A stretch of 56,895 nucleotides of DNA from positions 1 through 56,895 of the IMG/VR virus record IMGVR_UViG_3300025400_000022. One strand, written 5' to 3'. How positions within the stretch are numbered: the first letter of the stretch is position 1; every line of letters begins with the position of its first letter. A model generated the notes under the pieces. That model had not been told where the DNA came from and searched no databases. It worked only from the letters and a program-made list of their open reading frames with translations. Both the position numbers and the translations under genes were made by a program. This DNA is from a virus. Positions 1 through 23,236 of this stretch are shown in pieces.

Positions 1-231
1 ATCTACGTTCTGATGGACGATGAACAAGTGGATAAAATGGTCGGCTACCAGTACGAACACGTCATCACACTGGACAGCGCCAGCGAGTACGAGATGCTTT
101 GCGCGGTTGAGGAATGGTTTGAGGAGTCTTGCAGTCTGCGCTTCGTTCAGTCTGTCAGGAGCGCACTAGAGGGTGAAGACCCTAACAAGGGTTTCACCGT
201 TCTGATTGAACAGGGTTTCGGGGAAGACTAG
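1..231 (+). CDS. Small acidic protein, 5' end missing
   Basis: The reading frame is open to the first base of the window, and the first ATG (13) has no ribosome site before it, so this is the 3' part of a gene that starts outside. The visible 76 codons are rich in Asp and Glu and carry no motif I recognise. It is followed by the hairpins at 254-297. It resembles the other short acidic proteins of this arm in size and composition; the function is unknown. Confidence 0.6.
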   Translation: MYVLMDDEQVDKMVGYQYEHVITLDSASEYEMLCAVEEWFEESCSLRFVQSVRSALEGEDPNKGFTVLIEQGFGED

Positions 232-253
232 GGGAGTGGGGTGGCTATCACAG

Positions 254-297
254 CACCCCCTCACTGATACGCCGAGGGGGTGGGGTCACTTGACCCC
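254..297 (+). terminator. Double hairpin after the first gene
   Basis: A 9-bp stem (254-262 with 274-282) is followed at once by a second stem, GGGGTC with GACCCC (282-287/292-297). A T-run (321-326) lies further downstream, directly before the CGCG array. This is probably a transcription end for the gene cut by the window edge. The symmetry would also hinder leftward transcription. Confidence 0.55.
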
Positions 298-325
298 GCC
301 CCCTTGAGGTATCCCCACTCTCTTT

Positions 326-389
326 TTCGCGTGTGTGCACCCGTACGCGAATCGCGTGCAGGAATCGCGTATGCGAATCGCGTGCACGA
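326..389. repeat. CGCG palindrome array 1
   Basis: The array holds several near-palindromes built from TACGCGA and TCGCGTA, for example ACGCGAATCGCGT, interspersed with GTGCAC-like steps. It begins with TTCGCGT directly after the T-run and ends with a GCACGAG step. No open frame with a start signal uses it. Together with 390-503 it fills the 338-bp gap between the first two genes. Confidence 0.8.
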
Positions 390-427
390 GATGACAATGG
401 CAATTTTACAAATAAAGTTGGGGAAAA

Positions 428-456
428 ATTATACCATAACGTCGGCCACAAGTCAA
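428..456 (-). promoter_or_regulatory. Leftward promoter facing array 1
   Basis: On the minus strand there is TTGACT (456-451), a 17-bp spacer and TATAAT (433-428), the -10 being preceded by TGG (extended -10). Initiation would fall near 421, and the RNA would run left through array 1 towards the terminator hairpins. No ribosome site with an open frame follows, so a non-coding or antisense RNA is the simplest product. Confidence 0.6.
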
Positions 457-467
457 GTCAATTCTAC

Positions 468-482
468 AGATAATGCCTATCT
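468..482. promoter_or_regulatory. AGATA-N5-TATCT dyad 1
   Basis: This is a perfect 15-bp dyad with spacer ATGCC, centred at 475. The centre is 19 bp from the outer edge of the leftward -35 and 29 bp from the first base of the rightward -35. The same geometry recurs at 1789 and 2523. It is likely a binding site for a dimeric regulator; the protein is unknown. Confidence 0.6.
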
Positions 483-503
483 CAAAAAAAGATTGAAACC
501 GGC

Positions 504-554
504 TTGACTTTCTTCCCTGCACCTGCCATAATGGATACGTCGGGGAAAAGCCCC
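504..554 (+). promoter_or_regulatory. Rightward promoter and 5' mRNA hairpin, unit 2
   Basis: TTGACT (504-509), 17 bp, CATAAT (527-532). The expected start is near 539, so the mRNA begins with the hairpin GGGG-AAAAG-CCCC (542-554), then the ribosome site AAAGGAG (558-564) and ATG at 570. The -10 region and the loop are shared with the other promoters of this arm. Confidence 0.75.
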
Positions 555-569
555 AACAAAGGAGATGAG

Positions 570-1001
570 ATGACCTACACCTACGAAACGCCTAAGGGCG
601 GAGTGTTCGAGAGCAACTATGCCCTCACAAAAGAACGTAGCGCCGACATTTGGTTCTGCGAAGGCGGTGGCATTGTAAACGCAATTGGAGACTACTACTA
701 TGGCAACGGTCGGGTGACTATCTACTGCTTGGGGGAGATGCGCCTAAACTTGGCAGACGGAACAGTCTGGCGAAGTGCTTGGGACTTGCCTAGCAACATC
801 ACTAACGACGAAGAACTAATGAACGTGTGGAGCGCCCCCGAAAACGACGTGGTGAACAACTGTTGGATAGAACTGTTCGACACCAGCGAGGGACAAGACG
901 TTGAGAACGAAGAGACCTACATCATTTGCGGGGACATTTGGGAAGCAATAGACGAAGCCCACGCCTACCTAGTGGCCACCTATCCAGAAGTTGAAGGGTA
1001 G
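570..1001 (+). CDS. Hypothetical protein, 143 aa
   Basis: The start is ATG 570, five bases after AAAGGAG; earlier in-frame starts lie inside the promoter. The protein is acidic with scattered Trp and Tyr and no signal peptide or membrane segment. I do not recognise a family. It is the only gene of its unit, flanked on both sides by promoter/array cassettes, so it is probably transcribed alone. Confidence 0.8.
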   Translation: MTYTYETPKGGVFESNYALTKERSADIWFCEGGGIVNAIGDYYYGNGRVTIYCLGEMRLNLADGTVWRSAWDLPSNITNDEELMNVWSAPENDVVNNCWIELFDTSEGQDVENEETYIICGDIWEAIDEAHAYLVATYPEVEG

Positions 1002-1012
1002 GTGGTGCAGGG

Positions 1013-1034
1013 TTCGCGTATACACACACGCGAA
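1013..1034. repeat. CGCG palindrome array 2 (short)
   Basis: This is the shortest array: one inverted repeat, TTCGCGT with ACGCGAA, eight bases apart. Its gap also lacks the leftward promoter and the AT-rich GGGGAAAAATTAT box found in most others, so it looks like a reduced cassette. Confidence 0.65.
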
Positions 1035-1057
1035 GAATCTCGAGGTATCTAGAAAAA

Positions 1058-1072
1058 AGATAGGGGGTATCT
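1058..1072. promoter_or_regulatory. AGATA-N5-TATCT dyad 2
   Basis: A perfect dyad with spacer GGGGG, centred at 1065. Here it lies 19 bp, not 29, upstream of the rightward -35, which is one helical turn closer; no leftward promoter is present. Another TATCT half-site lies at 1046-1050. Confidence 0.55.
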
Positions 1073-1083
1073 ACGAAAGTGAT

Positions 1084-1134
1084 TTGACTTTTTTCCCTGC
1101 ACCTGTCATAATGGATACATACCGAAAAGCGGTA
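1084..1134 (+). promoter_or_regulatory. Rightward promoter and 5' mRNA hairpin, unit 3
   Basis: TTGACT (1084-1089), 17 bp, CATAAT (1107-1112). The hairpin UACCG-AAAAG-CGGUA (1120-1134) begins at the expected transcription start. AAAGGAG (1141-1147) precedes ATG 1153. Confidence 0.75.
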
Positions 1135-1152
1135 TAACGAAAAGGAGAAACA

Positions 1153-1611
1153 ATGACCACAACCACTTACCCTGCTAAGGGAGTAATCACCTCTAGTTGC
1201 ACCTGCTACTACTGCCCTAGTTGCGAGATGACTTTCACGGACGACACCTATCCCGAAAACTGCGACTGCGGGACACCCTGCACACCTGCCTATGAGTCTT
1301 GCTCCGGCGAGTGCTGGGACTTCGCAACCGAAGACTTTGCCTACAACGCTTTTACTCCGTGGTGCTTGGCGAACGAGACCGACGAGTTCGCTATCTATGG
1401 TCGGCGTATGGGTTGGACTAACGGTAGCGGACACACGGGACGACTGACCGCGTTCAGGGAATTGCTGAACAACCTGACCCTGAACGGGGACTTCATTCTT
1501 CGCTGGGAGTTGAGCGAAGACAACAAGACCCTGACCGTCATTCGCTCTAGCCACGACGAAATGGGTGCGATGTTTGAGGTAGTGCCGTGGAATGAGGGAG
1601 ACGACGAGTAG
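1153..1611 (+). CDS. Cys-rich protein, probable zinc binder, 152 aa
   Basis: About nine Cys occur between residues 16 and 53, including CTC, CPSC and CDCG groups, followed by an acidic C-terminal part rich in Trp. The Cys spacing suits one or two zinc ribbons, but I cannot name a family. Start ATG 1153 follows AAAGGAG. It is a single-gene unit with its own promoter and leader hairpin. Role unknown; nucleic-acid or protein binding through zinc is a guess. Confidence 0.8.
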   Translation: MTTTTYPAKGVITSSCTCYYCPSCEMTFTDDTYPENCDCGTPCTPAYESCSGECWDFATEDFAYNAFTPWCLANETDEFAIYGRRMGWTNGSGHTGRLTAFRELLNNLTLNGDFILRWELSEDNKTLTVIRSSHDEMGAMFEVVPWNEGDDE

Positions 1612-1617
1612 GAGTAG

Positions 1618-1637
1618 GGTGGGGGGCGACCCCCACC
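1618..1637 (+). terminator. Stable hairpin with GCGA tetraloop
   Basis: GGTGGGGG (1618-1625) pairs with CCCCCACC (1630-1637) around GCGA, a GNRA-type tetraloop. It starts seven bases after the stop codon of the Cys-rich gene. There is no long T-run after it, so it may block exonucleases as much as stop polymerase. Confidence 0.45.
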
Positions 1638-1649
1638 TGAAACACCCCC

Positions 1650-1715
1650 TTCGCGTATGCCCGCATACACGCGAATCGCGTATCGCGTACACATACACGC
1701 GAACACGCACGCGAG
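1650..1715. repeat. CGCG palindrome array 3
   Basis: About six CGCG cores, with inverted repeats TTCGCGTATG/CATACACGCGAA and TCGCGTATCGCGTA. It is followed by the AT-rich box (1719-1746), which shares a stretch of more than 20 bp with the box at 403-424. Confidence 0.8.
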
Positions 1716-1741
1716 GAGATTTTACAAATAAAGTTGGGGAG

Positions 1742-1770
1742 ATTTTAGCACACGGGGCCACAAAAGTCAA
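1742..1770 (-). promoter_or_regulatory. Leftward promoter facing array 3
   Basis: Minus strand: TTGACT (1770-1765), 17 bp, TAAAAT (1747-1742). The RNA would enter the AT-rich box and array 3. No coding frame with a ribosome site follows. Confidence 0.5.
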
Positions 1771-1781
1771 GCATCAAAAGG

Positions 1782-1796
1782 AGATAGCCCCTATCT
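1782..1796. promoter_or_regulatory. AGATA-N5-TATCT dyad 3
   Basis: A perfect dyad with spacer GCCCC, centred at 1789. It is 19 bp from the leftward -35 edge (1770) and 29 bp from the rightward -35 (1818), the same as dyads 1 and 4. Confidence 0.6.
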
Positions 1797-1817
1797 CAAA
1801 AATAGTTGGAAAACGAT

Positions 1818-1871
1818 TTGACTTTTGCCCCGACCTATGGCATACTAGTTAGGTCGAGGAAACGCCGAGAC
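1818..1871 (+). promoter_or_regulatory. Rightward promoter and 5' hairpin, unit 4
   Basis: TTGACT (1818-1823), 17 bp, CATACT (1841-1846). The 5' hairpin (1853-1871) is GUC, then tandem G-A/A-G mismatches, then GG, loop AAACG, CC and GAC. Tandem sheared G-A pairs would keep the stem continuous. A GGATTACAACA ribosome-site region precedes ATG 1895. Confidence 0.65.
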
Positions 1872-1894
1872 AAACTACCGAAAGGATTACAACA

Positions 1895-2335
1895 ATGGAA
1901 CACGTCACTTACGGCACTGAGGTTGCCTCCGAGTTCACGCCCACTACCACCGCCGAGTTGGCGTTGGAAAACCGTGAGCGTGCAGTTGGGGTCAAGGAGC
2001 GTGCCATCACCGCTAAGGAGAATGACCTCTCCGAGCGTGAAGCATACCTCTCAAATGTCAAGGGTCAGATTATTGAGTTGGCTAAGTCCCTGATGGGTGA
2101 TGACGTTATTGTCGTTCAGCGTGAAGACTTTGATACTTTGGTTGATTTGGTGGAGACGGCTATCTCTAACTCCGAGGATAGCAAGGCGGCTATTGAAGAT
2201 TTGCAGTCTGAAATCTATGACCTGAAGCGGAACGCCGACAGCGTTGAGAGTAGCGCCGAAGATGCAAGTAGCAACCTTGAGAGTTCGCTTGCGGACTTGG
2301 AGAACGCCCTAGACAACCTGAAGGGTCTCGCTTAG
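1895..2335 (+). CDS. Coiled-coil protein, 146 aa
   Basis: The protein is acidic and almost entirely helical by composition. Residues ~22-70 and ~85-143 show long runs of Glu, Lys, Ala and Leu with heptad-like spacing and no Cys or Trp. It looks like a coiled-coil oligomer or binding protein. Start ATG 1895 lies about 9 bases after AAAGGA. Single-gene unit with its own promoter and leader hairpin. No family recognised. Confidence 0.8.
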   Translation: MEHVTYGTEVASEFTPTTTAELALENRERAVGVKERAITAKENDLSEREAYLSNVKGQIIELAKSLMGDDVIVVQREDFDTLVDLVETAISNSEDSKAAIEDLQSEIYDLKRNADSVESSAEDASSNLESSLADLENALDNLKGLA

Positions 2336-2345
2336 GCAACGGGTA

Positions 2346-2371
2346 GGGGGTTGGGCGCAAGCCCGACCCCC
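2346..2371 (+). terminator. GC-rich hairpin with GCAA tetraloop
   Basis: An eleven-pair stem (2346-2356 with 2361-2371, one G-T pair) is capped by GCAA, a GNRA loop. A second small CCCC/GGGG hairpin and ATTT follow, directly before array 4. Probable end of the coiled-coil gene transcript. Confidence 0.6.
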
Positions 2372-2391
2372 GATAACCCCGTTGGGGGCAT

Positions 2392-2442
2392 TTCGCGTAT
2401 GTAGGCACGCGATTCGCGTATCGCGTACGTATGCACGCGAAG
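2392..2442. repeat. CGCG palindrome array 4
   Basis: Begins TTTCGCGTATG and ends GCACGCGAA, with ACGCGATTCGCGT in the middle, a perfect palindrome around one base. The same family as the other six arrays. Confidence 0.8.
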
Positions 2443-2475
2443 CGACCCGAGGATTTTTAGAAAACGTATGGGGAA

Positions 2476-2504
2476 ATTATACCATAGGCCACACCAAAAG
2501 TCAA
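2476..2504 (-). promoter_or_regulatory. Leftward promoter facing array 4
   Basis: Minus strand: TTGACT (2504-2499), 17 bp, TGG plus TATAAT (2481-2476). The transcript would cross the AT-rich box and array 4; no gene lies on that strand. Confidence 0.6.
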
Positions 2505-2515
2505 GTATCAAAGGC

Positions 2516-2530
2516 AGATAGTCCCTATCT
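2516..2530. promoter_or_regulatory. AGATA-N5-TATCT dyad 4
   Basis: A perfect dyad with spacer GTCCC, centred at 2523: 19 bp from the leftward -35 edge (2504) and 29 bp from the rightward -35 (2552). Confidence 0.6.
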
Positions 2531-2551
2531 AAAAAAAAGATGCGTTTTGAC

Positions 2552-2603
2552 TTGACAGCGACGCCGAGACCTGTCATAATGGATACGTTCCGAAATGCGG
2601 AGC
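2552..2603 (+). promoter_or_regulatory. Rightward promoter and 5' hairpin for the antirestriction gene
   Basis: TTGACA (2552-2557), 17 bp, CATAAT (2575-2580). Leader hairpin GUUCCG-AAAUG-CGGAGC (2587-2603; one U-G pair). AAAGGAG then precedes ATG 2626. The loop differs from AAAAG at two positions while the stem stays paired. Confidence 0.75.
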
Positions 2604-2625
2604 AACTAATCAAAGGAGCAAGCAA

Positions 2626-3516
2626 ATGAGCAAGACCGCTTACGAGGTAGTCGCCCAGACTATCATCAAGCAACTGGAAAACAACGTCGCACCGTGGCGC
2701 AAGGAATGGATAGCCTACGGATACAAGCCTAAGTCAATGAGCAGTGGCAAGACCTACAAGGGTATGAACTTTATGCTCTTGATGTTTGAGGCTATGGACA
2801 AGGGCTACGAAAGCCCGTGGTGGGGAACGTTCAAGCAGATTACCGAGCGTGGAGGCGTGGTCACGAAGGGCGAGAGGGGCACTCCCGTAGTCCTGTGGAA
2901 GCAGTTTGAGACCGAAAACGCTGACGGGGACAAGAAGAAGGCGGTGGTGATGCGCTACTTCACCGTGTTCAACGCCCAGCAAGCGACGTGGGAAGACGGG
3001 AAAGCGCCAGCCTACGATAAGCCCGTTGCCCGTGATGCCGTTGCAGTCATTGAGGGGGCGCAGAGCATTATGGACAACTACTTCGCCCGTGACAATGCAC
3101 CGAGCCTAGCCTTTGGTGGAAACCGAGCCTACTACTCACCTAGTCGAGACGGTATCCAACTTCCCCAGCAGTCCAACTTCGTGAGCGATAGTTCGTTCTA
3201 TGCAACGGCGTTTCACGAGATGGGTCACTCAACCGGTCACAAGTCACGCCTAAACCGTGACGGCGTCGTGGAAAACCACTACTTCGGTAGCGAACTCTAC
3301 AGCGAAGAGGAATTGGTGGCAGAGTTCACGAGTGCGTTTTTGTGCAGTGAAACCGGTGTTTTGCCCGAGACACTGGACAACAGCACCGCTTACATCAAGT
3401 CTTGGCTGAAGGTTCTGAAGAACGACCCGAAGATGCTAGTAAAGGCAGTGGGTCGGGCGCAGAAGGCTACGAACTTCATCACCGGCGCAGAGACGGAGAC
3501 GGTGGAAGCCGAGTAG
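2626..3516 (+). CDS. ArdC-like antirestriction protein, 296 aa
   Basis: The N-terminal part (about residues 1-125) matches the ssDNA-binding domain of ArdC/TraC-type proteins: a helix beginning AYEVVAQTIIKQLE, then NVAPWRKEW and a Y-K-G-M-N motif. The C-terminal part is a zincin-like metallopeptidase domain with HEMGHSTGH (HExxH, about residue 198) and a downstream ELVAEFTSAF helix that supplies the third ligand in this family. ArdC proteins are carried by plasmids and phages and protect incoming DNA against restriction. Length is typical. It is the only gene of its unit, with a strong promoter, which fits early expression right after injection. Confidence 0.85.
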   Translation: MSKTAYEVVAQTIIKQLENNVAPWRKEWIAYGYKPKSMSSGKTYKGMNFMLLMFEAMDKGYESPWWGTFKQITERGGVVTKGERGTPVVLWKQFETENADGDKKKAVVMRYFTVFNAQQATWEDGKAPAYDKPVARDAVAVIEGAQSIMDNYFARDNAPSLAFGGNRAYYSPSRDGIQLPQQSNFVSDSSFYATAFHEMGHSTGHKSRLNRDGVVENHYFGSELYSEEELVAEFTSAFLCSETGVLPETLDNSTAYIKSWLKVLKNDPKMLVKAVGRAQKATNFITGAETETVEAE

Positions 3517-3522
3517 TGGCAG

Positions 3523-3567
3523 GGGGTCGGGGCGAACGTGTGTTCGCTCCGGCTCCGCCATTTTTTT
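3523..3567 (+). terminator. Intrinsic terminator after the antirestriction gene
   Basis: A 15-pair stem (3523-3537 with 3542-3556, a few G-T pairs) with loop GTGT, then GCCA and seven T (3561-3567). The T-run runs straight into CGCG array 5. This is the clearest intrinsic terminator of the left arm. Confidence 0.8.
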
Positions 3568-3623
3568 CGCGTGCGTGTATACGCGAATCGCGTAGGCGCG
3601 GGTACGCGAATCGCGTACGCGAG
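3567..3623. repeat. CGCG palindrome array 5
   Basis: Contains two copies of TACGCGAATCGCGTA separated by a GGCGCGG step, bounded by TTCGCGT on the left and CGCGAGA on the right. Confidence 0.8.
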
Positions 3624-3698
3624 AGGATTTCTAAAGAAACTACGGGCGAAAGTAGCCAGTTTTTGAGAAAAAGATGGGGAAAAATTATCGCACGACTA

Positions 3699-3727
3699 AT
3701 TATAGCGTATGCGTGAGTGAAAGTCAA
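3699..3727 (-). promoter_or_regulatory. Leftward promoter facing array 5
   Basis: Minus strand: TTGACT (3727-3722), 17 bp, TATAAT (3704-3699). It lies 16 bp further right of the AT-rich box than in the other cassettes. No AGATA-N5-TATCT dyad is found here. Confidence 0.6.
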
Positions 3728-3741
3728 GAATAATTACGTGT

Positions 3742-3767
3742 CATACTGTAAGCCCCTCAGACGGGTT
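3742..3767 (+). promoter_or_regulatory. Possible extended -10 promoter for 3787 gene
   Basis: TGTCATACT (-10 CATACT, 3742-3747) resembles the other -10 elements, but no -35 lies 17 bp upstream. A weak hairpin AGCCC/GGGUU (3751-3755/3763-3767) follows, so the arrangement imitates the other units with a degraded -35. Confidence 0.35.
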
Positions 3768-3786
3768 ATTTATGGGAAGGTATCAG

Positions 3787-4077
3787 ATGACACAGAACTT
3801 GTATTTCGTGACGGCAGACGGGCTTATAGGCATCGCTGACGGGCTTTTGCTTGTGCGCAGTGACGAGGTGACTTGGACAGAGTTGCAGGAAGCCGTAGAG
3901 AAGCCTAATCCGAAGTCGCAGGTTATGCGACTGCTACAGCGTGACAAGGGTATTCGCCCAGACGCAGTTGCACTAACTAAGGCCACAGCGTTCACCACAC
4001 CAGAGGCGGCGCAGGAGTTCCGAGAAGACCTTGAAGAAAAAGGTTGGACTTGGCTTGACAAGGACACAAACCCCTGA
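3787..4077 (+). CDS. Hypothetical protein, 96 aa
   Basis: ATG 3787 is preferred over ATG 3772 because GGGAAGG (3774-3780) sits six bases before it. The protein is mixed alpha/beta with an LIGIADGLLLV hydrophobic stretch near the N-terminus that is too short and interrupted to be a membrane segment. A promoter for the next unit lies inside its last 25 bases. No family recognised. Confidence 0.7.
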   Translation: MTQNLYFVTADGLIGIADGLLLVRSDEVTWTELQEAVEKPNPKSQVMRLLQRDKGIRPDAVALTKATAFTTPEAAQEFREDLEEKGWTWLDKDTNP

Positions 4078-4106
4078 TACAATGGTTGAGTACCGGAAAA
4101 GCCGGT
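4055..4106 (+). promoter_or_regulatory. Rightward promoter and 5' hairpin inside a gene end
   Basis: TTGACA (4055-4060), 17 bp, TACAAT (4078-4083). The -35 lies within the last codons of the upstream gene and the -10 directly follows its stop. Leader hairpin ACCGG-AAAAG-CCGGU (4092-4106). Confidence 0.75.
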
Positions 4107-4128
4107 GCTTTTATCAGAAGGGATTACC

Positions 4129-4515
4129 GTGGGAGACCGTGGAAACATCAAGTTAGTTAGTGAATACGGACAGCCGATTTACTTTTACACTCATTGGACT
4201 GCTTACCGACTGCCCGAAATTGTGGCGCAGGGGCTGGACAAGGGGCGTGACCGGTGGGGCGATGAGGACTACCTCAATCGTATCATCTTTCAGACGCTCC
4301 TCGGAGGCGACGAGAGCAACCTTTCTTACGGCATCAGTACCCGTGAGGCTGGCGACGCTTGGCGCTTGGTAGAAGTAGACCACGTAAAGGAAGAAGTTTC
4401 TATCTATGAGCGTGTCTACAGCGAAGACTTTGCGGACAGTCACTGGCGACCCGTCTATGAGCCTAAGTCGTTTCACGAGTTTGTCCTTGACTTTCTCCCC
4501 GTGGTAGCGGTATGA
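4129..4515 (+). CDS. Conserved-type hypothetical protein, 128 aa
   Basis: GTG 4129 follows AGAAGGGAT; the upstream in-frame GTG (4105) lies in the leader hairpin. The N-terminal motif IYFYTHWTAYRLPEI, followed by a DRWGDEDYLNRII motif, recalls a family of small actinobacterial and phage proteins of unknown role; this is memory of a pattern, not a search. It overlaps the next gene by four bases (ATGA), so the two are translated together. Confidence 0.75.
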   Translation: MGDRGNIKLVSEYGQPIYFYTHWTAYRLPEIVAQGLDKGRDRWGDEDYLNRIIFQTLLGGDESNLSYGISTREAGDAWRLVEVDHVKEEVSIYERVYSEDFADSHWRPVYEPKSFHEFVLDFLPVVAV

Positions 4516-4884: not shown

Positions 4885-4915
4885 GAGTTTTTCAAAAAAA
4901 AATGGGGAAAATGAT

Positions 4916-4967
4916 TTGACATTGACGTCGGCGTGTGTCATACTGTTTGGGTCGAGAAAACGTCTCG
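4916..4967 (+). promoter_or_regulatory. Rightward promoter and 5' hairpin, unit 9
   Basis: TTGACA (4916-4921), 17 bp, CATACT (4939-4944). Leader hairpin CGAGA-AAACG-UCUCG (4953-4967), the most A-U rich stem of the set yet still perfectly paired. Confidence 0.75.
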
Positions 4968-5675: not shown

Positions 5676-5727
5676 TTGACAAAGTAAAAAACCCCTGTTA
5701 TAATAGATGAGTACCGGAAAAGCCGGT
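5676..5727 (+). promoter_or_regulatory. Consensus promoter and 5' hairpin, unit 13
   Basis: TTGACA (5676-5681), exactly 17 bp, TATAAT (5699-5704): a perfect match to the sigma-70 consensus. Leader hairpin ACCGG-AAAAG-CCGGU (5713-5727), identical to that at 4092. Confidence 0.85.
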
Positions 5728-6229: not shown

Positions 6230-6284
6230 TTGACAAAGCAAAAAACCCGTGGTACAATGGTTCATCACCGAAAAGCGGTGGTGA
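6230..6284 (+). promoter_or_regulatory. Rightward promoter and long 5' hairpin, unit 14
   Basis: TTGACA (6230-6235), 17 bp, TACAAT (6253-6258). The leader hairpin has core CACCG-AAAAG-CGGUG and extends to nine pairs (6262-6270 with 6276-6284), the longest stem in the set. It drives the five genes 6304-7166. Confidence 0.75.
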
Positions 6285-7387: not shown

Positions 7388-7470
7388 CTGGCAGTTTTTC
7401 AAAAAAATGTGGGGAAAAATTATTCTGTGTGGCCCCTGGCAGTTTTTGACCCAAATGTGGGGAAAAATTA
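7388..7470. repeat. Two copies of the AT-rich cassette box
   Basis: A 35-bp unit starting CTGGCAGTTTTT and ending GGGGAAAAATTA occurs at 7388-7422 and 7436-7470. Single copies of the same box adjoin arrays 1, 3, 4, 5 and 6. In each, a T-run and an A-run can pair, so a leftward RNA would have an AU-rich hairpin near its 5' end. Confidence 0.65.
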
Positions 7471-9100: not shown

Positions 9101-9334
9101 TTAGTTGTCGCCACGCTTCTTGAACGGCGTTAGGCCGCTCGTAAAGGCGTAGAGAAGGGCGTAGATGAACGTGGCCTGCCAGAAGCCCATAGGTCGGAAC
9201 TGGGGCGCCCAGCGATGAATGTCGCCCGCCAAAAGCATCGTCACCAGTCCGCCCACCAATGCGGCGAGAGGCCACATCAGAAAACTGAAGATAGCAAACG
9301 TCAGGTTGCTAGTAGTCTTGAACTTTACCTGCAT
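9101..9334 (-). CDS. Two-helix membrane protein, 77 aa
   Basis: Hydrophobic segments at about residues 10-36 and 50-68, with a basic C-terminus (FKKRGDN). It begins in a 1-bp overlap with the stop of the GroES-like gene. A different frame of this stretch (9075-9275) is also open but lacks codon-like character and signals. Confidence 0.7.
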   Translation of the reverse strand: MQVKFKTTSNLTFAIFSFLMWPLAALVGGLVTMLLAGDIHRWAPQFRPMGFWQATFIYALLYAFTSGLTPFKKRGDN

Positions 9335-9603
9335 TAGTTATCCTTGTCGAGCACCGCTACGATGCCGGCAACTGGGACCTGAACGTACTTGACGCCGGCA
9401 ATCTCAACTGCGTATGCCAAACCGTGCTTGAAGACAACACTGTCGCCCTCACTGATGCCCTCAACGTCGGGGCCAACTGAGATAACCTCAGCAATGTCGG
9501 GCAGTGGTACTGCGCCCTGTGGAATTACGAGACCCGTCTCTGTGGTCTTTTCTTTGTGCTCCATGCGAAGAATCACATTGTCGCTAGTGGCCTTGAAAGC
9601 CAT
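9334..9603 (-). CDS. GroES-like co-chaperonin, 89 aa
   Basis: Features of the Cpn10 family can be seen: an N-terminal strand ending DNVILRM, a mobile loop with TTETGLVIPQGA (residues ~19-31), and the pattern VISVGPDVEGISEGDSVVF corresponding to the GroES core. It is slightly shorter than bacterial GroES (about 97 aa). By analogy with T4 gp31 it would replace host GroES on GroEL to fold a phage protein, perhaps the capsid protein; that is inference. No GroEL gene is in the window. A ribosome site GAAGGAG lies 6-7 bases before the ATG. Confidence 0.8.
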   Translation of the reverse strand: MAFKATSDNVILRMEHKEKTTETGLVIPQGAVPLPDIAEVISVGPDVEGISEGDSVVFKHGLAYAVEIAGVKYVQVPVAGIVAVLDKDN

Positions 9604-9912: not shown

Positions 9913-10163
9913 TACTTCTCCTCTTCGGATAATCCGGCTTGTTCACGACCGGTCTTGATTGCGCCTACGAATAGGCTCTTGTACTGCGCTTCTGCGTGCT
10001 CGCCCGACAGGTTTGCAAGGCCACCGGCAAGGGCAATAAGCGCCTCACGGTAGACTTCAGCCTGAAGTTCGGGGTCGAGTGGCTCTAGAAACTCTAGAGT
10101 CTCACGGTACTTCTGTTGCAGGTGTGCCAGAAACTCTGGGTCTTGTGCCTGTTCGGGTGTCAT
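9912..10163 (-). CDS. Helical protein, 83 aa
   Basis: Starts in a 4-bp overlap with the membrane peptide gene upstream. Pro-rich acidic N-terminus (MTPEQAQDPEFL), then helices with EPLDPELQAEVYREALIAL. No family recognised. Confidence 0.65.
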   Translation of the reverse strand: MTPEQAQDPEFLAHLQQKYRETLEFLEPLDPELQAEVYREALIALAGGLANLSGEHAEAQYKSLFVGAIKTGREQAGLSEEEK

Positions 10164-10414: not shown

Positions 10415-10582
10415 TTAGAAGGTACTTTCCAGTACCCGCAGCACTTCACAGGGCCACGTTTGAATCAAGGTGCCATTGGGACCCTTACAGCCGGCGCAGT
10501 AATTAACGTCACCAGCCCTGCCAATGTTCTGAAACACGGGCTGGTGCTTCTCTCGTAGGGCTTTGATTTCGGTGGGGGTCAT
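10415..10582 (-). CDS. Cys-containing small protein, 55 aa
   Basis: ATG 10582 overlaps the upstream stop (ATGA). It starts MTPTEIKALREKHQP, almost the same as the upstream gene's MTPDERQALREKHSQ, and both contain CxxC and a WPCEV/YPCDV motif, so the two genes are tandem paralogues. A zinc-binding role is likely from the Cys pattern. Confidence 0.7.
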   Translation of the reverse strand: MTPTEIKALREKHQPVFQNIGRAGDVNYCAGCKGPNGTLIQTWPCEVLRVLESTF

Positions 10583-10899
10583 AGTTTCTCTCCGCACTTG
10601 GGGCAGTAGGTGAAAACAGTCCATTGGTATTTAGCATTGGCTCTACTGAGCCATAGGTGTTCGCACTCAACTTTAGTTTTTAGGTCGTTAAACTTTAGGT
10701 TTTCGGTAGCGTCCAGTACCTTATAACCGTCATCGTATCCACGTTCGTAATTTATTGCCGCTTGAAAGTTTGCTTGGTCTACTTCGTCCAGCACCTTGAT
10801 TACGTCGCAGGGGTACCTTTCATACAAACAGTAAGAACATTGATTCTTTTCGTCCTGGCTGTGCTTCTCTCGTAGGGCTTGGCGTTCGTCGGGGGTCAT
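10579..10899 (-). CDS. Zinc-ribbon-like protein, 106 aa
   Basis: N-terminal part paralogous to the 55-aa gene downstream (CSYC, YPCDVIKVL). The C-terminus ends YCPKCGEKL, a typical half zinc ribbon, with CEHLW upstream that could complete a metal site. The same CPKCGEKL end is found in the 36-aa gene upstream, so a zinc-ribbon tail has been duplicated. Confidence 0.7.
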   Translation of the reverse strand: MTPDERQALREKHSQDEKNQCSYCLYERYPCDVIKVLDEVDQANFQAAINYERGYDDGYKVLDATENLKFNDLKTKVECEHLWLSRANAKYQWTVFTYCPKCGEKL

Positions 10900-11006
10900 A
10901 GTTTCTCTCCGCACTTGGGGCAGAAGTCTTTTAGACCGCTAACCGATGCTTGAGTTTCGTTGTTTGCTAAAGAAGCAAACACACCCATTTCTGGCAACAA
11001 CGTCAT
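10896..11006 (-). CDS. 36-aa peptide ending in CPKCGEKL
   Basis: ATG 11006 and the stop are both in 4-bp ATGA overlaps with neighbouring genes. Only the C-terminal FCPKCGEKL is recognisable, identical to the end of the next gene. It may be a truncated copy of that gene kept because translation passes through it. Confidence 0.5.
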   Translation of the reverse strand: MTLLPEMGVFASLANNETQASVSGLKDFCPKCGEKL

Positions 11007-11148: not shown

Positions 11149-11252
11149 TATTCTTCCTCCTCTGGGTTGCAGTCTTCACACTTCCATGGCACTTCACCAA
11201 ATTCTTCGCAGTGCCACGTCTCAACAGGGTCGGGTGTGTATTCTTCTCGCAC
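11148..11252 (-). CDS. 34-aa Cys peptide
   Basis: GTG 11252 shares a base with the previous TAG, with AAGGG just upstream. It has WHCEEFGEVPWKCEDC, so three Cys and a His in a metal-site-like pattern, then an acidic tail. Probably zinc-binding. Confidence 0.5.
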   Translation of the reverse strand: MREEYTPDPVETWHCEEFGEVPWKCEDCNPEEEE

Positions 11253-11665
11253 TAGATTCCCTTCAAGATGTTTTGCAGATTAGCACGGAAATTGCCTACT
11301 TCTTGGTAGCCGGCGGTCTCGATGTGCATAATAGCCTTTTCAATTCGGCGTTCCAGTTCGCTCCGAGATGGGCGACTTGGCTCTGCTGCTTCGCCGGCCT
11401 CCCAGATTACAGCATTGCGACCCGATGAGTTCTTGCGACGCAGTTGAGAGTCTCGAACTCGTCCCTCAAGAACCAATGCTCGGCGTCGAGCGGTAATGGA
11501 AGAAATCTGCATACCAAGAACCTTGGCTACTTCTTGGTCGGTGCGTGGCTTTTCGCTAATGAGCGAGTAAACTTTTTCCAGTTGGGTTTCAACCAAGTGT
11601 TCAACAGATTCTGCGGCCTCTCGGCTGGTCTTAGAACTCCGTTGAAATGGTGCTGTAATTTTCAT
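11252..11665 (-). CDS. Winged-helix DNA-binding protein, 137 aa
   Basis: ATG 11665 follows AAAGGAGTGAC. Residues ~25-90 read as a winged helix: VYSLISEKPRTDQEVAKVLG, then ISSITARRRALVLEGRV and a wing with NAVIW. The C-terminus is helical. Likely a transcription regulator. It heads the chain of tiny coupled genes to 10415 and lies under its own promoter, so it could regulate the divergent unit at 11947. Confidence 0.7.
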   Translation of the reverse strand: MKITAPFQRSSKTSREAAESVEHLVETQLEKVYSLISEKPRTDQEVAKVLGMQISSITARRRALVLEGRVRDSQLRRKNSSGRNAVIWEAGEAAEPSRPSRSELERRIEKAIMHIETAGYQEVGNFRANLQNILKGI

Positions 11666-12761: not shown

Positions 12762-13075
12762 TGGGAGTAAATCATCGCTGGACAGACGGAGAAGAGTCTT
12801 TGGCTGGAAGTCTAATCACCACGTTTGCAGTGGGAGAGTTAAAGTTGTTGGCATTGTCAGTTCCGGCTTCATCGTTGTCGTCAGGCAATTTTTATGACGT
12901 TATCGAGATGCCCGGAGGCACGACGCTTTATGTCTGCATTTCTCAAGACCACATCAAAGAACTGGTTTCAGACGTAGACGACCCGTACCAAGTTGGGTTT
13001 TCGTTTGGTGTCTTCATTGGCAACCTATTAACGTCGATTTATTTTGAACTTATGTCAGAAGCGGAAGATGACTAA
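12761..13075 (+). CDS. Hypothetical protein, 104 aa
   Basis: TAATG overlap, with AAAGGAGC before the start. A central hydrophobic part (VGFSFGVFIGNLLTSIYFEL, near the C-terminus) could be a buried helix or a weak membrane segment. No family recognised. Confidence 0.7.
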   Translation: MGVNHRWTDGEESLAGSLITTFAVGELKLLALSVPASSLSSGNFYDVIEMPGGTTLYVCISQDHIKELVSDVDDPYQVGFSFGVFIGNLLTSIYFELMSEAEDD

Positions 13076-13499
13076 AAAACTCACAAAGGAAGAGCGTTGG
13101 GAAGTTAGCGAACGCTGGCGCGCAAATGCAATCATTGAAAAGTCCGTTAGGGACGACAAGAATGTTATTGAAGAACTGACCTCTCACTTTGTTGCCCGCC
13201 GTTTGATTGAAGAATTGACCGGTGAGGAGGTTGTGCTGAACAAAAAGAATCGCCGGCAAGACCCTAATAAGGTCCTGCCGGCGTGGGGCAAAGAAAACGT
13301 TGGTCGAGAGATGACCACTGAAGAAATTCAAAACTCGCTTGGGGTAACTTACTCTATTGTAATAAAGTTGCTCAAGAACACCGACTACTTTTACAAGGTC
13401 AAGCGAGGGCTGTATAAAGTTTACGATGGTGCGGGAGACCGAGAAGCGGCTAAGGTCGCTAGCAAGAAAAAGGTTGATGCACCTGCTACACTGATTTAG
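13068..13499 (+). CDS. Putative DNA-binding protein, 143 aa
   Basis: ATG 13068 (MTKKLTKEER) overlaps the upstream stop by 8 bp; AAGCGGAAG lies before it. A basic helical N-terminus is followed at residues ~85-125 by a winged-helix-like unit: MTTEEIQNSLGVTYSIVIKL then FYKVKRGLYKV. Its C-terminus is Lys/Ala-rich. Likely a nucleic-acid binder, possibly the regulator of this operon. Confidence 0.65.
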   Translation: MTKKLTKEERWEVSERWRANAIIEKSVRDDKNVIEELTSHFVARRLIEELTGEEVVLNKKNRRQDPNKVLPAWGKENVGREMTTEEIQNSLGVTYSIVIKLLKNTDYFYKVKRGLYKVYDGAGDREAAKVASKKKVDAPATLI

Positions 13500-13516: not shown

Positions 13517-13558
13517 CGGGGCACTTGAGTTTGGAACGACTCAGGTGCCCCGTTTTTT
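13517..13558. terminator. Strong intrinsic terminator between convergent genes
   Basis: A 14-pair stem (13517-13530 with 13539-13552, one T-G) with loop TTGGAACG, followed by TTTTTT (13553-13558). The convergent minus-strand gene stops at 13559. It ends the plus operon and may act on the minus strand too. Confidence 0.9.
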
Positions 13559-14266
13559 CTATTCTACGACTTCCCCGTCAATAAGACCAGAGGCCCAGGT
13601 AGGCGTCATGCCGTCGCCAAGGTCCATGATAGAGCGAGCAAACATTGTGCGTGCTGTCTCAATCTGGTTTTCCTTAAGGTTCAGGTCACGGCTAAGAATA
13701 ACAGCCATGAACGCCGCGCCAATCATGTTGGCTTGTTGCTCCTCGAGCGCCACGATGCGCTTCTGCAAGTCAAACTTGAGCAAGAACTCTAGGGACTTTT
13801 GGTATCGCTCCCAAGCACGTTCAAGAACCTCAATAAGCGCACGGGTGTGCTCAATGCCTGTCTTGTCAGTGACCTCTAGGATGCCGTTTAGTTCCTGCAA
13901 CTTTTCTTCAAGCACCAGAGACCACTGCTTCATTTTACCGGCCAGTACAAAGGCTTCTACCTCTGGTGGTCGAATGGGTTCAGGCTCTCCAAGGCGCTCA
14001 GTAAGCGTTGCAAACTCACGCTTCATTTGAACCTGCACAGCGCCCTTGACGTGAGTAGGCGTTGAGCCACCATGCCACTTACAGCGACCTTCGCCAAGGT
14101 GGGAAGTGCCCATGCCTTGTGTTTTGACGCAGTAGCGAGTAATGTCAAGTTCTTTGAGTTCCTTGCTACGAAGCCTGGCCCCGCATTTGCCCTCAACGGG
14201 TTCTGCGGAGCCAGGAATCTTTTGGTCTGGGTATGTTTCACTCCAAAGGAGTTCATCGTCGGTCAT
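13559..14266 (-). CDS. Zinc-finger protein, possible small terminase, 235 aa
   Basis: The N-terminal part has CGAR, YCVKTQGMGTSHLGEGRCKWHGGSTP (spaced Cys-Cys-His-Cys-His with HGG), followed by long helices (residues ~75-230). Phage proteins with this HGG signature followed by helices are often annotated as small terminase subunits, which would bind packaging sites. No large terminase gene is in the window, so context does not confirm it. It could instead be another DNA-binding helper. Confidence 0.5.
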   Translation of the reverse strand: MTDDELLWSETYPDQKIPGSAEPVEGKCGARLRSKELKELDITRYCVKTQGMGTSHLGEGRCKWHGGSTPTHVKGAVQVQMKREFATLTERLGEPEPIRPPEVEAFVLAGKMKQWSLVLEEKLQELNGILEVTDKTGIEHTRALIEVLERAWERYQKSLEFLLKFDLQKRIVALEEQQANMIGAAFMAVILSRDLNLKENQIETARTMFARSIMDLGDGMTPTWASGLIDGEVVE

Positions 14267-14414
14267 TGCTACTCAATTCGTAGTTGTGTGATGCGGCATT
14301 GTTAGTGCCAACAACAATCCAAGTTTTTACAATCGGTTTGCCTGCGGGCTTTGGTTGCGAACTAGGGTGTCGCTTCATTGCTCGCTTGCGTTTTAGTGAT
14401 TTATAAAATCTCAT
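14253..14414 (-). CDS. Small basic protein, 53 aa
   Basis: ATG 14414 overlaps the WhiB stop (ATGA) and its end overlaps the next start by 14 bp. The N-terminus is very basic (FYKSLKRKRAMKRH), so nucleic-acid binding is likely; then PKPAGKPIVKTWIVVGTN. Similar sequence has no name that I know. Confidence 0.6.
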   Translation of the reverse strand: MRFYKSLKRKRAMKRHPSSQPKPAGKPIVKTWIVVGTNNAASHNYELSSNDRR

Positions 14415-14872
14415 GCCTTCAATTTCTTTTCTGCCTCTTCGGCCTTTTTCTTGCGTCGGTATTCGGCAATGTATTCACGATGTGCGGCCTTACATGGGTC
14501 ACACATTGGCTCAAGCCGCTTGTTGTGAAGGATGTAGCCCTTCTCAGTGCCGTGAGCAATGGGAACGTCCGAAACAAGGTCTCCTCGCTTTTGAGCACGG
14601 CGCTCTTTCTGCAACTGCTTATTGATTGTACGGTCAAAAAACGGCTGAGAAATGCCAAGCGCACGACGCTTTGCGTATCGCTCTCGTTCTGTTGTGCCCG
14701 CCCAAAATCCGTAATGCTCGTACTGCATTGCTTGCTTTAAACACTGCTCCTTTACGGGGCAAACATCACAAAGTTCGTAGCATTCTTCTGACGGCTCTTC
14801 TGCAAAGAAATCAAGCCCGCTGTTTCGACAAGCGGCATCGTCTGCCCATTCATAGTTGCGAATTGGTTCCAT
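14411..14872 (-). CDS. WhiB-like Fe-S protein with extra C-terminal motif, 153 aa
   Basis: ATG 14872 (MEPIRNYEW) is used. Four Cys of the WhiB cluster are present: ACR, then CDVCPVKEQC, with the GFWAGTTERER turn in place of the usual G-V/I-W-G-G-x. The C-terminus adds HGTEKGYILHNKRLEPMCDPC, a second metal-binding motif seen in some actinobacterial and phage WhiB relatives. WhiB proteins occur only in Actinobacteria and their phages, where they control transcription with the main sigma factor. Overlaps neighbours on both sides. Confidence 0.85.
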   Translation of the reverse strand: MEPIRNYEWADDAACRNSGLDFFAEEPSEECYELCDVCPVKEQCLKQAMQYEHYGFWAGTTERERYAKRRALGISQPFFDRTINKQLQKERRAQKRGDLVSDVPIAHGTEKGYILHNKRLEPMCDPCKAAHREYIAEYRRKKKAEEAEKKLKA

Positions 14873-15075
14873 TAGATAGAAAACCAATCTTCTGGCAGTT
14901 CCCAGTCTTCGACGTTTCCAAGTCGCACCATGTGGGCGCAGGGGTCTAGGCCCTCGTCCCAAGCACGCTCTTCGGATTCATGCAAAGGGTAGGCATCGTG
15001 GGTCATGCAAAACTGCTCACTGCAAAACCCCTTCTCCATACCAATCTTGTACCATTGTTCAAACGTTATTTCCAT
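14872..15075 (-). CDS. Conserved-type small Cys protein, 67 aa
   Basis: ATG 15075 follows ACAGAAAGGAACAAA. The pattern FCSEQFCMTHDAYPLHESEE and the GLDPCAHMVRL motif is one I associate with small proteins next to WhiB genes in actinophages; the exact role is unknown. Cys and His suggest metal binding. Confidence 0.7.
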   Translation of the reverse strand: MEITFEQWYKIGMEKGFCSEQFCMTHDAYPLHESEERAWDEGLDPCAHMVRLGNVEDWELPEDWFSI

Positions 15076-18397: not shown

Positions 18398-19417
18398 ATG
18401 GCAAAAAAGACAGATACTGCCTCTATTTTAGACGCAGTTATGGCACAAATTGACAAAGACTTTGGTGAAGGGTCTATTGTACGACTGAGTAACGACAAGG
18501 TTTCACCCGTAGAAGTTATTTCTACTGGCGTGCTTCCGTTGGACATGGCGCTGGGCGCTGGCGGTCTTCCGCTGGGCCGAATCGTTGAGTTCTACGGGCC
18601 GCCCTCATCAGGCAAATCAACGCTGGCGATGCACTCAATTGCAGAAGCGCAGAAGCAGGGCAAAGTGTGTGCGTACATTGACGCTGAGCACGCTATTGAC
18701 CCTGTGTATGCCAAGGCTCTTGGTGTGAACTTAGACGAATTGCTTTTGTCTCAGCCCAGCACTGCCGAGGAAGGCTTGGAGATTACTATTCGCCTTGCAG
18801 AGACCGGAATGGTTTCCGTAATTGTGGTGGACTCCGTTGCCGCTTTGACCCCCCGCGCCGAACTTGAGGGCGAAATGGGCGATGCCAACGTCGGCCTTCA
18901 GGCTCGCCTTATGGGTAAGGCGTTGCGCAAGTTGGCCGGTCCCGCGTTTGACAACAACACACTGGTTATCTTTATCAATCAGTTGCGAGAGTCAATTGGC
19001 AAGATGTACGGGCCGTCTGAATACACCCCAGGCGGCAAGGCGTTGCCTTACTACGCATCAGTTCGCTTGGACATTCGACGAATCAAGACCATCACTAAGG
19101 GCGACGAAGCAACGGCTAACCGCACAAAGGTCAAGGTTGTCAAGAACAAGATTGCCGCACCGTATCGTGTTGCAGAGTTTGACCTTGAGTACGGCGTTGG
19201 CGTCCCAAAGGCTAACGCGTTGATTGACTGCGCCACCGATGTAGGCGTGTTGCAGTCTCGTGGCGCTTGGATTTACTACGATGGCGAGCAGTTTGCAAAC
19301 GGGCGTGCAAAGGCTAAGGCAAAGATTGAGTCCGACCCAGCGTTGTACGAAGAGTTGTACCAGCGTGTATTAGCACTAATCAACGTCACTAAGGCACTGG
19401 ACGAAAACGATGAGTGA
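18398..19417 (+). CDS. recA: RecA recombinase, 339 aa
   Basis: ATG 18398 follows GAAAGAAGGG. Recognised features: Walker A GPPSSGKST (~residues 68-76), IDAEHAIDPVYAKALGV, LSQPSTAEEGLEI, Walker B region VIVVDSVAALTPRAELEGEMGD (split by position), and loop 2 INQLRESIGKMYG with GGKALPYYASVRLDI. Length is that of a bacterial RecA core without the long acidic tail. It promotes strand exchange; in a phage it may support recombination-dependent replication or repair. The SOS box in front links it to host damage signalling. Confidence 0.95.
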   Translation: MAKKTDTASILDAVMAQIDKDFGEGSIVRLSNDKVSPVEVISTGVLPLDMALGAGGLPLGRIVEFYGPPSSGKSTLAMHSIAEAQKQGKVCAYIDAEHAIDPVYAKALGVNLDELLLSQPSTAEEGLEITIRLAETGMVSVIVVDSVAALTPRAELEGEMGDANVGLQARLMGKALRKLAGPAFDNNTLVIFINQLRESIGKMYGPSEYTPGGKALPYYASVRLDIRRIKTITKGDEATANRTKVKVVKNKIAAPYRVAEFDLEYGVGVPKANALIDCATDVGVLQSRGAWIYYDGEQFANGRAKAKAKIESDPALYEELYQRVLALINVTKALDENDE

Positions 19418-19634
19418 GAAGAACGCACAAAAAAACAATCAAGTTCGAGTTGCGGAAGCAATCAAGATGTGGTATATTGGACATACGTACGGACCGAGTT
19501 ACCGAGACATTTCCCGCATTACGGGCATTTCTCTTGGCACCGTGTTCAACGTGTGCAAGGAATTAAAAGAAACAAATGTAATTGAATTAAACGAAAAGGT
19601 GGCAAGGTCCATCAAACTGAAAGGAACAGAGTGA
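19410..19634 (+). CDS. Small helix-turn-helix protein, 74 aa
   Basis: Overlaps recA by 8 bp. Residues ~28-55, PSYRDISRITGISLGTVFNVCKEL, are a clear helix-turn-helix. Basic N-terminus. Likely a DNA-binding regulator of this recombination operon. Confidence 0.75.
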   Translation: MSEKNAQKNNQVRVAEAIKMWYIGHTYGPSYRDISRITGISLGTVFNVCKELKETNVIELNEKVARSIKLKGTE

Positions 19635-22768: not shown

Positions 22769-22923
22769 AAAAGCACATCGTAGAAGTGGTTTTTGAGAAG
22801 GGCACGTACAACACTGTTTGCTCATGCCATTGGAGCGGAAAGTATAAGACGCGCTCCCTGGCCCATTCAGCGGGCCATCTCCACATCTCGGAATCATTCG
22901 GTGCCAATGCTACCGGAGTTTAA
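22750..22923 (+). CDS. Small Cys/His protein, 57 aa
   Basis: ATG 22750 after AGAAGAGG; it overlaps the HNH gene by 19 bp and the next gene by 17 bp. It carries CSCHWSGKYKTRSLAHSAGHLH, with two Cys and four His, likely a zinc-binding site. Its place directly before a WhiB gene is notable. Confidence 0.65.
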   Translation: MVMGKVKKHIVEVVFEKGTYNTVCSCHWSGKYKTRSLAHSAGHLHISESFGANATGV

Positions 22924-23236
22924 TTTTACCGAGTTTGAAATCTATCAGTTCATCAACACTCTTGCTGATGCGCGCCCAGATTTTTACAACTACGCGGCTT
23001 GTAAGAACCAAGGAATTGCAAACTTTTTTCCCGGTCGGGGCAAGTCCTCGGTCATTAAAAAGGCAATAAATACATGCAGGTTTTGTCCTGTCCAGTACGA
23101 ATGCTTTGAATACGCAATGAACACACAAACCGAAGACGGGGTTTGGGGCGGAAGCACGCCAGAAGAGCGCACGAAATTAATTCAAGCCAACATTAGCGTA
23201 GAGGAAGCATGGCTAAGCCTAGAATCAAAAGAGTGA
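22907..23236 (+). CDS. Second WhiB-like protein, 109 aa
   Basis: ATG 22907 (MLPEFNF). Fe-S Cys residues in YAACKNQG and CRFCPVQYEC, followed by GVWGGSTPEER, the WhiB turn, here in its standard form. It lacks the extra C-terminal metal motif of the first copy. Probably binds the host sigma factor and redirects transcription. Its end overlaps the convergent gene 23225-23482 by 12 bp. Confidence 0.85.
   Translation: MLPEFNFTEFEIYQFINTLADARPDFYNYAACKNQGIANFFPGRGKSSVIKKAINTCRFCPVQYECFEYAMNTQTEDGVWGGSTPEERTKLIQANISVEEAWLSLESKE

Follow-up and report, generated by a model that had tools for sequence, protein, structure and literature searches.

Promoter-linked AGATA-N5-TATCT dyads in the early region of a putative freshwater actinophage

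The viral record IMGVR_UViG_3300025400_000022 (56,895 bp, here called the window in its entirety) contains exactly four perfect copies of the dyad AGATA-N5-TATCT, starting at 468, 1058, 1782 and 2516, each at a fixed distance from one or two predicted early promoters. A preliminary description of the sequence had named these four sites, and a scan of the whole record upheld both their positions (468-482, 1058-1072, 1782-1796 and 2516-2530) and their absence from genes: all copies are intergenic and lie within 2.1 kb. The sequence comparisons give good support for a regulator site whose helical position relative to the promoters is fixed, and the regulator is probably a dimeric, lineage-specific protein that contacts RNA polymerase from upstream. 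We favor this reading because the dyads and the −35 boxes are invariant, the spacers have diverged, and related phages use palindromes of their own at fixed distances.

Sequence, orientation and promoter distance of the dyads

No further perfect copy and no copy with one mismatch exists in the record; the other nine matches listed carry two mismatches each, about the number expected from shuffling. In 60 dinucleotide shuffles AGATA-N5-TATCT appeared once in two of them and never more than once. The half-site TATCT occurs only 19 times on the plus strand of the whole record, five of these within the dyad gaps. The motif was not found in the literature searched, under the spellings tried.

Promoters and start sites are consensus predictions throughout. 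The pattern TTGACW-N16-18-[TC]A[TA]A[AC]T matched 12 times in 57 kb, and in the first 5 kb it yielded rightward promoters at 504, 1084, 1818, 2552 and 4916 and leftward ones at 456, 1770, 2504 and 3727. Nine promoters match the version with an N17 spacer (TTGACW-N17-[TC]A[TA]A[AC]T), and hardly any of this promoter class lies outside the first 5 kb. The elements of the intergenic gaps are as follows.

428-433 (−): gap 1, leftward −10 box, TATAAT
451-456 (−): gap 1, leftward −35 box, TTGACT, 11 bp from dyad 1; a second register at 456-461 is also possible
468-482: dyad 1, AGATA-ATGCC-TATCT (AGATA-GGCAT-TATCT toward the leftward promoter)
490-494 (+): gap 1, third half-site, AGATT, 7 bp outside the dyad; AATCT when read in the shared orientation
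504-509 (+): gap 1, rightward −35 box, TTGACT, 21 bp from dyad 1; −10 box CATAAT at 527-532
1046-1050 (+): gap 2, third half-site, TATCT
1058-1072: dyad 2, AGATA-GGGGG-TATCT, inverted relative to gaps 1, 3 and 4
1084-1089 (+): gap 2, rightward −35 box, TTGACT, 11 bp from dyad 2; −10 box CATAAT at 1107-1112
1765-1770 (−): gap 3, leftward −35 box, TTGACT (N11); −10 box TAAAAT at 1742-1747
1782-1796: dyad 3, AGATA-GCCCC-TATCT (GGGGC toward the leftward promoter)
1804-1808 (+): gap 3, third half-site, AGTTG, degenerate
1818-1823 (+): gap 3, rightward −35 box, TTGACT (N21); −10 box CATACT at 1841-1846
2499-2504 (−): gap 4, leftward −35 box, TTGACT (N11); −10 box TATAAT at 2476-2481
2516-2530: dyad 4, AGATA-GTCCC-TATCT (GGGAC toward the leftward promoter)
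2538-2542 (+): gap 4, third half-site, AGATG
2552-2557 (+): gap 4, rightward −35 box, TTGACA (N21); −10 box CATAAT at 2575-2580
3722-3727 (−): gap 5, leftward −35 box of the same promoter type, without a dyad; −10 box TATAAT at 3699-3704

Counted from the near edge of the dyad, the leftward −35 box is 11 bp away (N11) and the rightward one 21 bp away (N21) at gaps 1, 3 and 4; these values equal the 19 and 29 bp reported previously from the dyad centre. At gap 2 the rightward −35 box is at N11, giving N11 at four promoters and N21 at three. The rightward promoters at 4916 and 5676, like the leftward one at 3727, have no dyad. At an N11 promoter the dyad centre precedes the −35 edge by 19 bp and falls at about −54 relative to the predicted start; at an N21 promoter it falls at about −64, one helical turn further off. 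Site and promoter are in fixed helical phase, as at sites of regulators that contact polymerase.

The centres of the dyads, first described simply as different, do differ, but not arbitrarily. In the shared orientation, facing the N11 promoter, they read GGCAT (gap 1), GGGGG (gap 2), GGGGC (gap 3) and GGGAC (gap 4); all four begin with GG, so the site is directional. On the far side of the dyad, 7 bp away across an A/T tract, a third half-site reads AATCT, TATCT, CAACT and CATCT in gaps 1 to 4, respectively, so that all four units share the consensus xAtCT-N7-AGATA-GG(C/G)(A/G)N-TATCT-N11-TTGACT toward the 11-bp promoter. Gap 2 is the same asymmetric unit as gaps 1, 3 and 4, inverted to face its rightward promoter. 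This inversion explains the 11-bp spacing on the right; the 19 bp from centre to −35 box noted earlier for gap 2 hold, but the gap is not the exception it had seemed.

The distances might have been inherited rather than selected if a single promoter cassette had been copied between genes, and gaps 1, 3 and 4 indeed share stretches beyond the motifs (for example 403-431 and 1719-1747, 90% identical over 29 nt). Summed over the six pairwise comparisons of the four gaps, however, the half-sites are identical at 60/60 positions and the N11-side −35 boxes at 36/36, the 11-bp spacers at 22/66 and the 17-bp promoter spacers at 46/102. The N11 spacers have diverged to near random (1/11 to 5/11, the pair of gaps 3 and 4 excepted) while dyads and −35 boxes are intact, and simple duplication therefore does not account for the spacing. 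Nor does a single duplicated cassette explain the rightward promoters of gaps 1 and 2, which are 86% identical over 44 nt, because the dyad stands at N21 in the former and at N11, with the whole unit inverted, in the latter. Paralogous duplication without functional constraint is improbable in our judgment, and the alignments make constraint on the dyad and its phase the better reading.

Other palindromes in the same role in related phages

The four-copy set comes from this one record, which may be incomplete, and the records of relatives are partial as well. Conservation among relatives, which had been set out as decisive for the preliminary reading, failed for the dyad sequence; the type of element and its approximate place are kept. 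The major head protein has 69 relatives in IMG/VR; of 50 records of such relatives, 48 lack the exact dyad and two have one copy each. The dyad is likewise absent from relatives identified by ArdC, the anti-restriction protein encoded behind gap 4, over the stretches examined. Scans for the dyad together with a promoter returned only single, unrelated or coding-sequence matches, in IMG/VR among the matches listed and also in GTDB. The genes and sites compared are given below.

570-1001 (+): early gene following gap 1, for which IMG/VR gave no close relative
1153-1611 (+): early gene behind gap 2, Cys-rich N terminus
1895-2335 (+): early gene behind gap 3, coiled-coil-like
2626-3516 (+): ArdC-like anti-restriction gene (ardC) behind gap 4
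L120, 918, 1200, 1560, 1775, 2229, 4141 and 4450: TCGCGTACGCGA 10 bp upstream of TTGACA
L366, 10349-13229: TCGCGTACGCGA 10 bp upstream of TTGACA
L297 (G006), 7417-7428, 9994-10026, 11452-11471 and 13553-13560: tandem GATTCTCAG repeats

Relatives have other palindromes in the same role. In L120, whose ArdC is 72% identical, seven promoters carry TCGCGTACGCGA exactly 10 bp (N10) before TTGACA, and two more have a copy with two mismatches, also 10 bp off. A scan of the whole of IMG/VR for the unit TCGCGTACGCGA-N10-TTGACA matched L120 and L366 only, seven times each; most of the L366 units have a recognisable −10 box, one leftward copy has none and one lies near the contig end. Together the two records have 14 such places, with 13 promoters counted. 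The ardC upstream regions of L120 and the window align up to a TTTTTAGGAAAAC element, after which L120 has a palindrome-like site and a promoter and the window about 85 bp with the leftward promoter and the AGATA dyad (the multiple alignment of this region misplaces the −35 box of the window).

A third palindrome, TCGCGC-NN-GCGCGA, occurs 24 times in G043 (ArdC 60% identical; L295 3062-16121, minus strand), mostly before early genes and nearly once per early gene. TAnnnT boxes resembling −10 elements follow 25-28 bp from the palindrome 22 times; 15 of them are at 25-26 bp, where 500 random placements never gave more than 5. Many of the G043 −35 boxes are far from consensus, and a palindrome beside a poor −35 box looks, by analogy, like an activator-dependent promoter. 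Homologues of window genes stand behind this palindrome, whose sequence is unrelated to the AGATA dyad: that of the gene at 1153 (40% identical, L295 9994-9575), that of ardC, and a gene (L295 10454-10164) with weak similarity (E 3e-4) to the one at 1895. G006 has yet another element, the tandem GATTCTCAG repeats, beside several promoter-like sequences including a divergent pair. As an observation apart, the G043 set constitutes a larger promoter-linked palindrome system than that of the window.

Tentatively, and with somewhat less than even confidence, we suggest that corresponding early promoters in a group of freshwater actinobacterial myophages are controlled by palindromes replaced wholesale from one lineage to another (AGATA-N5-TATCT, TCGCGTACGCGA, TCGCGC-NN-GCGCGA), each at a fixed promoter distance of its own. 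If so, regulators would co-evolve, or be swapped together, with all their sites, and these phages would offer a natural series for studying how the specificity of a whole phage regulon changes. Gene control is little understood in phages of uncultured freshwater Actinomycetota. With their homologous early genes, ardC among them, behind unrelated palindromes, each in fixed phase to its promoter, these phages provide ready-made sites for finding the regulators and for asking how regulator specificity can shift at many promoters of one phage together.

Proposed control, rival explanations and genomic setting

From this arrangement we infer protein binding, contact with polymerase and leftward transcription as well as the sign of the effect. 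The dyad would be the core of a site of ~27 bp (xAtCT-N7-AGATA-GGSRN-TATCT), asymmetric, for a dimeric or oligomeric regulator specific to the phage lineage; each early promoter or pair of promoters would have a single site. Bound between about −47 and −73 relative to the predicted start, the regulator would sit just upstream of polymerase on the N11 promoter, a position that would enable it to contact the alpha C-terminal domain or sigma region 4, and the back-to-back promoter would be one helical turn further away. It would set the timing of both divergent transcripts together, i.e., of rightward transcripts of early genes including ardC and of leftward RNAs that have no convincing open frame and overlap the end of the upstream gene in antisense. 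Of the earlier proposal that a regulator touches polymerase, the fixed helical relation is well supported, and the contact itself is the conditional part. As to the sign, we give activation or boosting an even chance and prefer it over shut-off of the early promoters, which seems distinctly less probable; the window promoters are near consensus, however, which makes shut-off a serious rival.

That rival has a specific form in which the phage is temperate or of temperate descent, the dyads are immunity or early shut-off operators, and the bound protein obstructs polymerase or holds it at strong early promoters, for instance as an upstream repressor like phi29 p4. Near-consensus promoters would then be on by default, and the sites do stand at early genes. 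The unrelated palindromes of related phages would mark immunity groups of diverging specificity, as for Cluster A repressors (compare PMC6550527). We nevertheless regard repressor operators as rather doubtful, for the sites lie upstream of −46, beyond the usual zone of steric block, no repressor gene was recognised beside them, and a tyrosine integrase (PF00589, the one integrase family searched) was not found in the possibly incomplete record. A host regulator whose site was hijacked by the phage is unlikely: the G-rich centre and AT-rich arms vaguely resemble type 1 CsoR/RcnR operators, but the centre of gap 1, GGCAT, breaks the G tract, no CsoR/RcnR gene (PF02583) was found in the phage record, and the 39 GTDB loci with dyad-promoter matches do not cluster in freshwater Actinomycetota. 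Hairpins acting in RNA or single-stranded DNA have hardly any probability. Perfect 5-bp stems with 5-nt loops could fold, but the sites are upstream of both divergent starts and outside either predicted transcript, the stems never co-vary between copies, and loop polarity and promoter distance are fixed.

Several observations weigh against a regulator that contacts polymerase from the dyad. The leftward promoter at 3727 is of the same kind and has no dyad, and promoters so near consensus as those of the window may need no activator. Gaps 1, 3 and 4 share some ancestry, the N11 spacers of gaps 3 and 4 are identical at 8/11 positions, and the third half-site of gap 3 is degenerate. The reading concerns a single record, with no strain variants of the early region found, and neither a phage-encoded CsoR/RcnR nor an Ogr/delta protein (PF04606) was found in this possibly incomplete record.

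Two winged-helix proteins had been put forward as candidate regulators, and one of them, a MarR-like protein, is kept as a possible regulator.

11252-11665 (−): MarR-like winged-helix protein (phrog_1123), candidate regulator

Its predicted structure contains a confident winged helix (pLDDT, the predicted local distance difference test, about 90 for residues 30-90) that matches MarR-type repressors, and with a homologue in 1 of 17 relatives its distribution is narrow; on this structural model it possibly is the protein that binds the dyad. The other, encoded at 13068-13499, gave a model of middling confidence with weak winged-helix matches. It is conserved in relatives without the dyad (for the ArdC relatives, over the stretches examined), hence unlikely to be the specific regulator, and we disfavor it. 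A small helix-turn-helix protein (19410-19634, HTH_24) is widespread among relatives.

The early-gene leaders read have ordinary AAAGGAG-type sites. No convincing open frame was found behind the leftward promoters; those of gaps 1, 3 and 4 and the one at 3722-3699 (−) are strong and have no gene behind them, which hints at paired antisense control. The predicted leftward RNAs pass into GC-rich hairpins and, in antisense orientation, into the last part of the upstream gene; possibly one site controls a gene together with an antisense RNA. Folding of the leftward RNAs is strong at gaps 3 and 4 (z about −5) and weak at gaps 1 and 5. The gap terminators lie inside the folded stretch, so this structure is no evidence of an RNA family, and we rejected that idea; an Rfam search gave nothing above threshold.

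In the leaders, hairpins that keep an AAAAG-type loop on varying stems (e.g., GGGG-AAAAG-CCCC and ACCG-AAAAG-CGGT) directly follow early-gene start sites, at about 541-557, 1119-1135, 4088-4104, 5705-5722 and 6260-6278, and occur in relatives, too. A TTTTTAGGAAAA-like element is present at 403-432, 1719-1747, 2454-2481, 3660-3690 and 4888-4913 and in many places in L120 and L366, and it precedes the majority of early promoters of these phages. In gaps 1, 3 and 4 it is separated from the rightward −35 box by the leftward promoter and the dyad.

The record encodes tail sheath and collagen-like tail proteins, a RecA-like protein, recombination proteins of RecE-like and Erf-like type, the ArdC-like protein and two WhiB-like proteins. 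The WhiB genes suggest that the host is an actinobacterium and, together with the freshwater literature, that the phage is a freshwater actinophage. Positions 1-4500 had no related DNA among about 50,000 deposited phages, and a GTDB search with the major head protein for a prophage or host found nothing. The two WhiB-like proteins, at 14411-14962 (−) and 22793-23236 (+), differ, the first having a long basic C-terminal part. The phage also encodes a chaperonin 10 (GroES-like) protein at 9334-9603 (−). At 10553-10927, short stretches with 82-97% identity are shared with many relatives (G045, G040, G017, G049) and repeated within some of them; these small open reading frames look like a duplicated gene family.

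Comparison with known systems

Repeated promoter-linked dyads in actinophages are a known kind of element, and the closest known system is the extended start-associated sequences (ESAS) of Cluster K mycobacteriophages. ESAS are repeated intergenic units of a SigA-like promoter with a 17-18 bp spacer and an imperfect inverted repeat, located before selected non-structural genes; their function is unresolved, the consensus of the inverted repeat varies by subcluster, and orthologous genes keep the unit (PMC3203893, PMC11373665). The window, too, combines a SigA-like promoter with an inverted repeat in a repeated intergenic unit. Yet the ESAS repeats are 15-17 bp long, their spacer is variable or 12-14 bp, and they are coupled to a start-associated sequence close to the start codon (PMC3203893, PMC11373665), whereas the window dyad has perfect 5-bp arms around a 5-bp centre, is located upstream of the −35 box and serves back-to-back promoters in three gaps. 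The 13-bp start-associated sequence of ESAS, GGGATAGGAGCCC, was not found in the early-gene leaders read.

Cluster O mycobacteriophages have 17-bp dyads, TGTTCGG-N3-CCGAACA, in 34 copies genome-wide, most of them not near promoters (PMC4351075). They resemble the window dyads in their invariant arms, variable centre, several copies, restriction to particular phages and unknown regulator, but their centre has little meaningful orientation, whereas that of the window dyad is oriented. The sites of Ogr/delta in P2 are positioned near −55, and P2 late promoters are activator-dependent with a poor −35 box. The window dyad, with its centre at about −54, is similarly just upstream of the −35 box and common to a divergent promoter pair; such a pair on one site is seen in PP'/PO' of Smp131, and the Ogr/delta-activated late promoters of P2-like phages carry TGT-N12-ACA (PMC3931495). 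The window dyad differs in sequence (AGATA-N5-TATCT), in standing at early rather than late genes with near-consensus −35 boxes, and in the absence of the zinc-finger activator (PF04606) from the possibly incomplete record. Cluster A stoperators, 13 bp long and for the most part unconnected with promoters, block elongation (PMC6550527); Cluster A operators and stoperators have in common with the window dyads that they are repeated sites specific to a phage group, some of them in early promoters. The AGATA-N5-TATCT dyads thus stand nearest to ESAS and are not members of the ESAS, Cluster O or P2 families.

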